Source of the DNA: Pseudomonadota bacterium
Lineage (GTDB): Bacteria; Pseudomonadota; Alphaproteobacteria; Paracaedibacterales; CAIULA01
Length of the DNA: 6,084 nt
Assembly: GCA_021804455.1 (NCBI GenBank)
Contig: JAJZHT010000082.1
Location: 1 to 6,084 of the forward strand
Direction: 5' to 3'
This document shows, one piece after another, positions 1,985 to 6,084 of this stretch. A program made the position numbers and the translations under genes. The notes under the pieces are model-generated. The model did no database searches. It was not told the origin of the DNA and was given only the letters and a program-made list of their open reading frames with translations. Every line of letters starts with the position of its first letter. The first letter of the stretch is position 1.

Positions 1985-3577
1985 GTGAACCTTAAAACGA
2001 AATTAAAAACAGGCCTTTTGGCTGTTTCGTTGGCGTTAACGGGCGCTAACGCTCAGGAAAAACCAGGTGGTTTTGATTGGCAAGACGTTGTTAAAAATTT
2101 TGCGGCGTTATCAACAATGCCGAATCCAGGAGTTCAACAACCCCAACAACCTCCACTTTCCTCGTCACAACAACCCCAGACCTCTCAATTCCCGGCCTTT
2201 GCTTTTATGGGGCCCCAACAGGAAGGATGGGGTCAAAGTCCTAATCCTAGTCAATTCCCAACTTTTGGAGGACAAGCACCTTCGATTCCTGTATCCTTTG
2301 GAAGTTTTCCTTCTATACCAGACCAATGGTTGACGGGCGCTGGTGGTCTAGATAAATCTAAGGCACCTGTTAATCTGACATCGACTTCCAAGGATTTAGG
2401 GGGGCTTCCTGTTGTGGACGATTCAAAGCAACAGAAATCCAAAAAACCCATTATTCTTTTGAATCAAGAGGGGCCAAAGACTCAAGATCCTCTTAAAAAT
2501 GAACAACAAGCGGCGCCTGGACAAATATTTTCAAAGGGCAAACATGATGTTCGTTCCTGTTCCTGTAAGAAAGATTGTCCAGATTGTTGTTTGACTCCCG
2601 TTGATAACATGAGGTTGTTAGAACAATTGATTGCTACCCGAATCGATGGTTTCAGTCAGGCTGTAGAAATGTATTCACTCCAAGCCTTATTATCCAGTAT
2701 GTATACTGGAAAACCGTTAGATTCCGAAGGTCAAGCCGAAGGATGGGCTTCCCTATGGCAAACCATGACACTTGACCCTCAAAGTGGACTACAACCCTAC
2801 TTGCAACAACAAATCCATGTTAACCCTGTTGAATGTATGATTGCATTGTTGAGGCCCAAATTCGAATGCGATGATTTTTGTTCTCGGATAAAAATTGCTA
2901 ATCGTTTTGTGGAAATGTTTAAAACGGTGGCCGCAAGAACAGAACATGTAATCGCAACTTTTAAGAATTGTGAAACCGATGGAACAATGACAATTACCAA
3001 TATTTTACCTGAGGGAGATCCAGTTAACATTGGAGATATAGCGTCAACTGTATTAACAGGAACCGTCACAACGGACAATTTGGTATTAAAGGCAACTTTC
3101 CGAACGGTACAAGATTTATTCTGTAATGATGATGTTCAGGTTCTCATTAAGGCTATGTTGGAAACGGCACAAATTGATGCTGGTTTCAAAAAAGATCGCC
3201 TTGGATGCTGGTTGAAAGTTTTAGGGGACGTCTTACCTTATGCTAAGGGAGACTGTAGTTATGGGCTTCAAGAACCACAAGGAACTCATTTTGGAACAGC
3301 ACCTCAACGATTGTCTTTGCGCGAGCAAATTGCTTTATTTATCGTCCAGAGCCACTTTCCTCAGATTCTGATGCAGCAGGGTCAAGGTGGGCCTGTGTTA
3401 CCAACAATGATTCAGCCTCAAATGGGTCAAGGCAATACATCCAGTCAGGGGAAATCAAGCAATCAAACCCCACCCGTGATTGTAAAGCCGTTACCAAAAC
3501 CTCAAGGACAACCAACAGAGCAGAATACCACCTCAAGCTTAAATCCAAATCCAAATCCAAATCCAAACTCTTACTAA
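1985..3577 (+). CDS. Secreted Cys-rich protein of unknown function with Gln/Pro-rich region and Asn-Pro tail
   Basis: I do not recognise a family for this 530-residue protein. It begins with a classical Sec signal peptide (MNLKTKLK, then GLLAVSLALTG, cleavage probably after ANA23). Residues about 45-115 are low complexity, rich in Gln, Pro, Ser and Phe. About 120-190 is polar. A Cys cluster follows (C192, C194, C198, C201, C202, as CSCKKDCPDCC), then a probably folded, mostly helical domain of about 205-470 with seven more cysteines (284, 295, 299, 329, 380, 408, 424). Twelve cysteines, all after the signal peptide, suggest disulfides made in the periplasm, or metal binding by the cluster. 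The tail is again Gln/Pro-rich and ends in four NP pairs plus NSY. GTG start is set by AGGGAG 8 bases upstream; no other start precedes the signal peptide. It stands alone, with its own promoter zone and terminator. A surface-exposed or exported protein is inference. Confidence 0.85.
   Translation: MNLKTKLKTGLLAVSLALTGANAQEKPGGFDWQDVVKNFAALSTMPNPGVQQPQQPPLSSSQQPQTSQFPAFAFMGPQQEGWGQSPNPSQFPTFGGQAPSIPVSFGSFPSIPDQWLTGAGGLDKSKAPVNLTSTSKDLGGLPVVDDSKQQKSKKPIILLNQEGPKTQDPLKNEQQAAPGQIFSKGKHDVRSCSCKKDCPDCCLTPVDNMRLLEQLIATRIDGFSQAVEMYSLQALLSSMYTGKPLDSEGQAEGWASLWQTMTLDPQSGLQPYLQQQIHVNPVECMIALLRPKFECDDFCSRIKIANRFVEMFKTVAARTEHVIATFKNCETDGTMTITNILPEGDPVNIGDIASTVLTGTVTTDNLVLKATFRTVQDLFCNDDVQVLIKAMLETAQIDAGFKKDRLGCWLKVLGDVLPYAKGDCSYGLQEPQGTHFGTAPQRLSLREQIALFIVQSHFPQILMQQGQGGPVLPTMIQPQMGQGNTSSQGKSSNQTPPVIVKPLPKPQGQPTEQNTTSSLNPNPNPNPNSY
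3541..3567 (+). repeat. Hexamer tandem repeat AAATCC x4 coding for Asn-Pro repeats
   Basis: AAATCC is repeated four times, followed by AAA, just before the end of the secreted protein gene, and encodes the NPNPNPN tail. The 6-base unit keeps the frame, so copy-number change would only lengthen or shorten the tail by two residues per unit. Confidence 0.9.
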
Positions 3578-4328: not shown

Positions 4329-4716
4329 TTACCTCGTATGGGAAGTGCTTGGAGCCATTTCACAAACACACTCTGTGCCCATGTTTAAATTTTTAAAGGT
4401 AACTTTGTAATCTTTATCAACGCTTAAATTGGCACAAGTCCCCCTAGGAGTAAGAGGATTCGTTCTACCCCTTATGAAAAATGTTGATTTTCCCGCCATT
4501 TCCTTATCCGTTACATCAAACGTAACCGTGGAAAGAGGGGCTATTTTAAGCTCTAACCAGTGCAAATCCTCGGTTAAAGCTCCTTCTGCTTGAATATATA
4601 CGATCAACTCTTTGGCGTTTTCGTTCTTCACTTCCAATTTAGAAGCCAACAACGTGGATGACGTCATTATTATGAATAAGGCTGTGGAGATTCTAAAGAT
4701 CCTATTTTTTTTTCAT
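4329..4716 (-). CDS. Small secreted protein of unknown function; signal peptide split off by frameshift in A9 tract
   Basis: The uninterrupted frame runs from ATG 4667 to TAA 4329 (112 residues), but that ATG has no SD. Upstream, AAGGAG is 7 bases before ATG 4716, followed by nine As and an immediate TAG. With eight As the frames join as MKKNRIFRISTALFIIM, then TSSTLLAS, a textbook Sec signal peptide, giving 128 residues with cleavage near LLA/S. So the native gene very likely starts at 4716 and this copy carries a one-base insertion, a phase-variable state, a slippage-corrected site or a sequencing error. The mature part alternates beta-like stretches (LIVYIQAEG, LELKIAPLSTVTFDV, STFFIRG, YKVTFKNL) and has three cysteines (78, 100, 102 of the 112-residue frame), with CVC near the end. 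I recognise no family; a small periplasmic beta-sandwich is inference. It lies 51 bases after the DUF2795 gene and may share its transcript. Confidence 0.75.
4705..4713. repeat. 9-base homopolymer at the start of the small secreted gene
   Basis: Nine T on the plus strand (A9 on the coding strand) follow ATG 4716 directly. As read, AAA AAA AAA TAG ends translation after four codons; one A fewer opens the frame into the 112-residue downstream frame. Confidence 0.9.
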
Positions 4717-4729
4717 GATTTATCTCCTT
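4717..4729 (-). promoter_or_regulatory. Ribosome binding site that marks the true start at 4716
   Basis: AAGGAG (4724-4729) lies 7 bases before ATG 4716, whereas ATG 4667, the start of the open frame, has no SD. This is the main argument that translation begins upstream of the A9 tract. Confidence 0.8.
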
Positions 4730-4767: not shown

Positions 4768-5034
4768 CTATTCGATTCTTCCCACTTCTTTAGCAATATC
4801 AACAGCGGTGTTATAAGTCTTTTCTTCAAAGCGATTTAAGACACTCATAACATCTTCTGGTGCATTATTTTGTTTAGCTCTTTCGATGAGATCTTTCTTT
4901 TGTGCTGGTAAGTCGATCCCTTTCATATAACGTTCTACAGCGGCAGGACTGGCCTTTTCTGGGTTTCCGCGTCCACCTTCACTGCTTTTTTGTCCGCTAA
5001 CTTGGCGTCCATCTTTTTTATCATCAGTAAACAT
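4768..5034 (-). CDS. DUF2795-type small protein
   Basis: An 88-residue, highly charged, soluble protein without signal peptide. Residues 1-30 are Gly/Ser/Lys-rich and probably disordered. About 31-85 fits my knowledge of DUF2795: AAVERYMKGIDLPAQKKDLI, then ERAKQNNAPEDVMSVLNRF and EEKTYNTAVDIAKEVG, that is, a helical fold in which the KGIDLP and DLIERA segments are the most recognisable part. The biochemical role of this domain is not established; it is often seen in small proteins near stress-related genes. ATG 5034 is supported by GGGAGG 5 bases upstream. It sits 101 bases after the KGG gene and 51 bases before the small secreted gene, in the same direction, so a shared transcript is possible. 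No catalytic residues are evident; a regulatory or nucleic-acid-binding role would be a guess. Confidence 0.8.
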   Translation of the reverse strand: MFTDDKKDGRQVSGQKSSEGGRGNPEKASPAAVERYMKGIDLPAQKKDLIERAKQNNAPEDVMSVLNRFEEKTYNTAVDIAKEVGRIE

Positions 5035-5135: not shown

Positions 5136-5426
5136 TTACTCTTCTTCGTGGTGGCTGCCTGCTCTGCCAGGACGGGAACGATGGGGTGCTGACCCTCCCT
5201 CTCGACCTAACTCGACATACCCTTCGTGTCCTAATTGTTCGGCACGAACTTCACCACCTTTGTGGCCCCTTGCTGCCATACCTTCGTGACCGGCCTTTTC
5301 CGCGCTGGCATGTCCACCTTTACTGGCAATTTCCTTGACTTTTTCAGTGGGCATAGAGGCAAATCCTTTTGCAGCATGAGGACTATTTTGAGAATCTTTT
5401 TGAGGGGATCGATTTTTAGTAGTCAT
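5136..5426 (-). CDS. KGG-repeat stress-induced protein
   Basis: A 96-residue, very hydrophilic protein, rich in Gly, His, Lys and Glu, without signal peptide. It contains three copies of the stress-induced bacterial acidophilic repeat (KGG motif): residues about 21-41 (GFASMPTEKVKEIASKGGH), 45-61 (AGHEGMAARGHKGGEVR) and 65-81 (LGHEGYVELGREGG). The family includes E. coli YciG and YmdF and Bacillus GsiB-like general stress proteins; such proteins are probably disordered hydrophilins that protect in desiccation, acid or starvation, though the mechanism is unsettled. The third repeat has REGG in place of KGG. The tail SHHEEE has no assigned role. ATG 5426 is well supported by AAGGAG 7 bases upstream. 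It follows a gene-free stretch likely to hold its promoter and leads toward the DUF2795 gene, which suggests a stress-responsive unit. Confidence 0.9.
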   Translation of the reverse strand: MTTKNRSPQKDSQNSPHAAKGFASMPTEKVKEIASKGGHASAEKAGHEGMAARGHKGGEVRAEQLGHEGYVELGREGGSAPHRSRPGRAGSHHEEE

Positions 5427-5742: not shown

Positions 5743-5823
5743 ATGCCAACCTTTGTTAATCGAGGGTTAAAGATCTTTAGATTTTTTTTTGTTTTTCTAA
5801 GAATTCTTGGATTCCCTTGAGTT
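5743..5823 (+). CDS. Doubtful 26-codon ORF with very strong SD
   Basis: AAAGGAGGG (5731-5739) is followed 3 bases later by ATG and a frame of 26 codons reading MPTFVNRGLKIFRFFF and ending RILGFP before TGA. The peptide is basic and hydrophobic in its second half, as in some small membrane peptides. Against it: the SD spacing is short, and from 5777 the frame lies antisense to the end of a real minus-strand gene, whose A9 tract makes the Phe run. It may be a chance frame or a remnant of a lost gene. No family recognised. Confidence 0.2.
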
Positions 5824-6084
5824 CTTTTGCAGTTCTAAAGGGGATAGCATCTGTATCGGTTAATTCCAAATTTAATTCTTTTCTGAGTCGATTTCGTAAG
5901 GACTTTAACAAGGGGTCAAAAGGGGCATTTTGGCCAAGAATAAGATGAAGTTTGTCAATTTCTTCTTTGGTTCCATAAAGTTGTATCATAGCAATCGCCT
6001 CTTCTAGATTTTTTTGCAGCTCGAAATTTTTTTCATTTTCTGGATCACGAGCCACGCCCATGGCAATCTGCCTATAAACATTGA
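5777..6084 (-). CDS. Helical protein of unknown function, C-terminal part (cut by window edge)
   Basis: The frame is open to the right edge (about 101 residues visible, beginning NVYRQIA), so an ATG at 6061, which has no good SD, may be internal rather than the start. The visible part is predicted helical: VYRQIAMGVARDPENEKNF, then LEEAIAMIQLYGTKEEIDKL, then FDPLLKSLRNRLRKELNL. This arrangement, an AIAMIQLYG helix followed by LLKSLRNRLRKEL, recalls C-terminal domains of uncharacterised bacterial proteins often anchored by an N-terminal membrane helix, but I cannot name the family, and the anchor, if any, would lie outside the window. The C-terminus (FLEKQKKI) is Lys-rich and contains an A9 tract just before the stop. 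No clear terminator follows, and 350 bases separate it from the KGG gene. Confidence 0.65.
   Translation of the reverse strand, partial: NVYRQIAMGVARDPENEKNFELQKNLEEAIAMIQLYGTKEEIDKLHLILGQNAPFDPLLKSLRNRLRKELNLELTDTDAIPFRTAKELKGIQEFLEKQKKI

Follow-up and report, generated by a model that had tools for sequence, protein, structure and literature searches.

The DNA analysed here (the window, 6,084 nt) is one whole contig of a 1.2-Mb draft genome, which comprises 174 contigs and is 84% complete; among the genomes searched, its species is represented by this one only. The bacterium is uncultured and likely related to the symbionts of amoebae, and it would fall in the Paracaedibacter/Odyssella order of protist symbionts. 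On the minus strand, a Shine-Dalgarno (SD) motif AAGGAG (4724..4729) lies 7 bases 5′ of an ATG codon (4714..4716, hereafter ATG 4716), which is followed by nine A's (A9, 4705..4713; T9 on the plus strand) and a TAG (4702..4704). Translation from this ATG gives only MKKK*. Another frame opens at 4712, right behind a TGA overlapping the ATG, and extends to 4329 over 127 codons. As judged from its translation, the alignment to a homologue and the leaders of the family, this frame encodes a Sec-type signal peptide, KKNRIFRISTALFIIMTSSTLLA (4644..4712, up to a putative cleavage site), and then a conserved mature domain with a predicted beta-sandwich fold (4329..4643 with the stop codon, from a putative mature start). 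The 112-aa ORF of this frame (4329..4667) begins at ATG 4667, the earliest ATG, GTG or TTG available; this codon falls within the signal peptide, and by eye no SD precedes it. The predicted export signal is out of frame with the good start codon owing to the nine A's after the ATG. The sequence features given in the earlier note were found at their coordinates, all of them on the minus strand, and its statement that the good SD belongs to the disrupted start and none to ATG 4667 agrees with the sequence.

Upstream of this gene, a DUF2795 protein is encoded on the same strand at 4768-5034, 51 bases off, and a KGG/LEA_5 stress-type protein at 5136-5426. A 530-aa, secreted-looking, Q/P-rich protein with no Pfam match above the cut-off is encoded at 1985-3577 and ends in an AAATCC tandem repeat (NPNPNPNPN).

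A profile search gathered a family of 115 proteins, including the window's own. The named sources are Paracaedibacteraceae, Odyssella, Caedimonas and Nucleicultrix relatives, and the remaining records are named only Alphaproteobacteria bacterium or bacterium. Our literature search returned several described 5′ poly(A) switches and no publication on this protein family. The closest homologue, P0002, matches the shifted frame with its residue 2 onward and without gaps, beginning at base 4712 (KKNRIF...); 79 of 119 positions are identical, leader included. This alignment bears out the earlier proposal that the signal peptide in the shifted frame is joined to the 112-residue ORF. By a motif count, the mature start is preceded by at least 21 residues in 108 of 114 homologues and by fewer in six, one of which (P0007) is an early motif match. 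The leaders of P0044, P0085 and P0003 have only 8-14 residues, and at least P0044 and P0085 have kin with full leaders; these short-leader proteins and P0087 could reflect additional breaks or the ends of contigs. P0082 and P0057 appear by eye to be the same mature protein, but the N-terminus of P0082 is unrelated and without an evident signal peptide, so that P0082 is a possible further leader break.

When family genes were read as DNA, the SD-ATG was in frame with the leader in 22 of 24 distinct genes and out of frame in two, the window and G004, a genome of the same GTDB family. This count took in 23 loci and gave 24 rows, one per distinct gene, using a loose SD list and ATG as the only start codon. 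Loci L152, L154 and L155 have no row of their own, and the paralogues L030-L044, L129 and L130, which are longer or more distant, were excluded. Under a stricter SD list, several of these paralogues showed no SD-start, and L030 and L041 showed an out-of-frame SD-start further in. Export is likely the family state and ATG 4716 is likely the old start, because the P0002 alignment, the homologue leader counts and the SD-ATG frames all point the same way. On these comparisons, the leader frame as the ancestral one and the A tract as the point of the shift are well supported. Broken leaders were found in 2 of 3 genes inside the GTDB family and in 0 of 21 outside it, although the former figure overstates the share, since the window was chosen for being broken, and becomes 1 of 2 when the window is excluded.

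The second break is of a different kind. In G004, AAGGAG precedes the start as it does in the related G007 gene, and AAGGAGATTTACAATG is retained, but the short frame stops as MKSNLYF*. A few codons into the leader, G004 lacks one base relative to G007, and there is no long homopolymer at the site. The first in-frame ATG of the G004 copy aligns with ATG 4667 of the window, eight residues ahead of the inferred cleavage site. According to the earlier note, a relative starting at the position of ATG 4667 would speak against a disrupted signal peptide. G004 has that form, but in its own copy the SD-ATG is intact and a frameshift follows. Adaptive loss of the leader would read the two cases otherwise: in both, ribosomes would reinitiate at the internal ATG once the short frame ends and make a cytosolic domain. 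An ATG does stand at the same aligned place in the two broken copies (MTSSTLLA in the window, MTIETALA in G004), where G007 has TTG. By eye, however, neither internal ATG is preceded by an SD, the two invariant cysteines of the domain suggest an exported fold, and there are two cases only; we hold adaptive loss to be very improbable. A scan for a promoter inside the leader stayed at the chance level (2 found, 2.1 expected). The G004 and G007 leaders (loci L065 and L066) differ downstream of the break at 4 of 54 bases, and their mature parts at 73 of 288; nucleotide conservation at the 5′ end of these loci is unusual.

A direct search located the gene in 3 of the 8 genomes of the GTDB family and no copy in the other 5, whose listed completeness is 91 to 100%. 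G001, from the same genus, carries nothing closer than a distant relative, which lies in a frame of 203 aa. A HAD-like hydrolase gene (named by eye) that adjoins the family gene in G004 (L065:8817-9522) has a 2-base gap relative to G007. When G006 and G007 genes were compared with G004, breaks were flagged in 1 of 12 comparisons in this region and in 0 of 29 elsewhere; this comparison is blind to the leader break and, with both genomes used, may count a G004 gene twice. The 29 comparisons elsewhere do not support the view of G004 as a generally error-prone assembly. In the reverse comparisons, G006 had one flagged case among 22, a partial match, and G007 one among 12, where only 66 residues match a 398-aa gene of G004. 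With the window as outgroup, a relative-rate test counted 9 changes unique to G004 and 4 unique to G007 (chi-square 1.92). None of the ten outgroups tried gave a chi-square above this value. The counts lean to G004, but no clear relaxation was found in it.

The domain itself has no other lesion in the window. The five residues invariant in the alignment are all kept, N15, C78, Y87, F91 and C100, with C78 and C100 of the 112-aa ORF as the two invariant cysteines. Between G007 and G004, the domain has a dN/dS of 0.07 at a dS near 2, and eight neighbouring comparisons range over 0.018-0.175; synonymous sites of the window are saturated, so that this figure covers the G007-G004 pair only. An old pseudogene would carry several lesions and show relaxed constraint; found here were a single frame change, a conserved domain and the low G007-G004 dN/dS. 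Taken with the lack of clear relaxation, the intact domain and this ratio suggest that the breaks in the window and G004 are recent or tolerated.

No family name was assigned to the domain. DUF3124 was the sole Pfam match of the window protein, with an E-value of 0.099, below the cut-off. Among 12 aligned members, DUF7356 matched most widely (4 of 12, best E-value 0.00058) and Cupredoxin_1 matched 2 (best 0.02); neither these nor EfeO-type cupredoxin-like, the UniRef name of P0009, was taken as an assignment. P0002, P0006 and the G004 protein, the three searched against NCBIfam, gave nothing near a cut-off. A sequence search of solved structures returned a single match, a ribosomal protein with an E-value of 0.75, and no TssJ, and the viral contigs searched held no relative. 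Cytolysin-domain matches appeared in Foldseek and VIA, but several unrelated beta-sandwiches score equally, and no cytolysin function is claimed. With TssJ and transthyretin-like lipoproteins the family may have, at most, a common fold, and the window's leader has no cysteine and hence lacks the lipobox cysteine of those proteins. A lipobox-like motif was present in 4 of 114 homologue leaders (P0010, P0012, P0054 and P0081) and in the longer paralogue L018, and these members may be lipoproteins.

Nine-base tracts are not in themselves rare in this genome, with 36 exact A9/T9 runs in 1.206 Mb. Three of the 36 sit in the window, where about 0.2 would be expected. The other two are a T9 at 1595-1603, right after an ATG of the dicarboxylate-symporter gene and in frame, and an A9 at 5782-5790, close to the 3′ end of the gene at 5777-6061. 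Elsewhere in the genome, locus L101 has an ATG followed by A9 in frame, MKKKVAVVLLNLGGPDS..., and its product presumably resembles ferrochelatase. Of 30 of the 36 sites whose frames were read, 22 were in stop-to-stop frames of at least 100 codons, and 19 of these, L101 included, were past the first possible start. In 104 sampled coding sequences, coding A/T runs of at least nine were depleted relative to a codon shuffle, 1 being seen against about 12 expected (nine-base runs, 1 against 6.3; ten or more, 0 against 5.7). Runs of 5 to 7 were above the shuffle and runs of 8 slightly low (19 against 24.7). In many of the genomes studied, a large share of the total, selection against A/T runs has been reported to set in at nine (PMC1088944). 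By the reasoning of Baranov 2005 (PMC1088944), slippage at nine, be it in replication or transcription, would then carry a cost here, because coding runs of at least nine are scarce. A scan of the 120 bases around the start in 24 family genes found an A/T run of at least 8 in the window's gene only and in none of the 23 others. Loss of mutS or mutL as a driver was rejected, both genes being present with open frames of 893 aa and 608 aa, respectively.

The clustering of runs bears on whether the ninth A exists at all. An error in homopolymer length or in the consensus of the metagenome assembly would leave the true tract in frame, and both the 174 contigs of the draft and the three A9/T9 runs in this one 6-kb contig are in its favour. 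However, the window's two further runs are within open frames, and the cluster of the 112-aa protein (P0001) is recorded with two members from two contigs, of which the window's was the one read. We assign a small probability to such an error.

If the tract is real, its position invites comparison with a phase-variable export switch, in which A8 would be on and A9 off, reversibly, and the tract would be kept by selection as in swrA, inlA and mycoplasma p78 and vaa. The homopolymer stands immediately after the start codon and sets the frame by its length, the SD and the rest of the gene are intact, and runs of at least nine are scarce in the sampled coding sequence. The swrA gene uses the same lengths of 8 and 9, and other surface proteins are known to be switched by poly(A) tracts at the 5′ end (PMC2831843). 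A selected switch is nevertheless disfavoured because it predicts a tract kept among relatives, an optional sign of selection for any one locus, and among the 24 family genes the tract is private to the window. Further points against it are the long open frames of mutS and mutL, the break in G004 with no long run for slipping, the in-frame ATG-A9 gene at L101 and the direct search, which located the gene in no more than 3 of the 8 genomes of the GTDB family. We consider such a switch unlikely, though a candidate within the species. A more specific version, in which a protist symbiont would toggle secretion of a small Holosporales-type protein by A8/A9 slippage at the start codon while related lineages repeatedly lose the leader and the domain stays under selection, appears to us distinctly unlikely; if it were true, export itself would be the trait toggled. 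The earlier note listed four options (phase variation, RNA polymerase slippage, a newly broken gene and an assembly error) and chose none. Slippage at the tract gains support from the scarce coding runs and from swrA, and the comparisons above count against a conserved, selected switch.

Slippage by RNA polymerase, in place of the replication machinery, would give a mixed mRNA pool from the A9 gene, part of which reads into the leader. The tract has nine A's, that is, a run of at least nine at the frame change; the dnaX gene of T. thermophilus uses nine A's (PMC1088944), and the poly(A)-indel genes of Blochmannia are otherwise intact (PMC3017870), as the domain is here. Such a rescue is possible, and its support here amounts to the tract length and the intact domain. 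However, a run conserved among homologues, which is Baranov's sign of use, is absent, the lesion of G004 has no long run, and with the tract right after the ATG the exported product would come only from shifted transcripts. Overall, we judge the rescue improbable.

The reading that we favour, with about even confidence, is that the A9 gene is an off allele produced by slipped-strand mispairing (A8 to A9) in a dispensable gene for an exported protein, and that this gene is probably eroding in the lineage. Replication slippage from eight A's to nine would have shifted the start codon out of the leader frame, no exported protein would be made from the A9 allele, and the same slippage could occasionally restore the frame. 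What is seen would then be loss and not regulated switching. A cytosolic product from ATG 4667 would have no SD for its translation and would miss the oxidising compartment that pairing of the two invariant cysteines, should it occur, would call for. A slip from A8 to A9 that is able to revert would be the simplest cause, because the swrA tract both gains and loses its ninth A (PMC2831843), and reversion as in swrA is plausible.

Slippage is a likely origin on three counts: the sole run of at least 8 near the start among the 24 genes, the coding depletion of runs of at least nine and the analogy with swrA. That the gene is probably eroding is suggested by the G004 leader and HAD-like breaks, the 66-residue match of G007 and the gene's presence in 3 of 8 family genomes. 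The lack of any other domain lesion and a G007-G004 dN/dS like that of the neighbours point to a recent event. Several observations count against parts of this reading. Neither broken copy has gained further lesions, which would also fit a gene still in use; relaxation in G004 is not clear from the relative-rate counts; dS is near saturation; and the partial match flagged in G006 (1 of 22) places breaks elsewhere above zero. The A9/T9 sites in long frames, 22 of the 30 read, 19 of them past the first start, argue against A9 as such being harmful and indicate that it is tolerated.

The locus is a clear case in which a one-base slip at the start codon would stop an otherwise intact protein from being exported. 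To our knowledge, few such switches are known in uncultured host-associated bacteria of this lineage. The analysis also brings out an uncharacterised family of 115 proteins, predicted to be exported, in which the leader is out of frame at different sites in two genomes.

Among known systems, swrA of Bacillus subtilis is one of the nearest. It has an A tract near the 5′ end, 8 or 9 A's set the frame, and the gene behind the tract is intact (PMC2831843). It changes from 8 to 9 A's at about 1e-5 and from 9 to 8 at about 1e-4 (PMC2831843). However, switching was measured in swrA, whereas here one assembled allele is seen, and the tract of the window differs in standing directly behind the ATG, between the ATG and the signal peptide. 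The inlA gene of Listeria and p78 and vaa of Mycoplasma resemble the window gene in that a surface protein is silenced by a 5′ poly(A) indel, which in inlA leaves an 8-residue peptide (PMC2831843). They differ in that the window belongs to an uncultured, symbiont-like alphaproteobacterium with one allele seen, and its family is unrelated as far as known. For rescue by transcription, slippage has been shown for tssM with eleven A's (PMC4256274), and poly(A) frameshifted genes of Blochmannia are thought to be rescued in the same manner (PMC3017870). Blochmannia is like the window in being a host-associated lineage with an indel in an A run of an otherwise intact gene (PMC3017870). In contrast, several of the Blochmannia genes are information-processing ones and some of the frameshifts are common to more than one species (PMC3017870), whereas in the genome of the window long runs are scarce in the sampled coding sequence and the gene is present in 3 of 8 family genomes.
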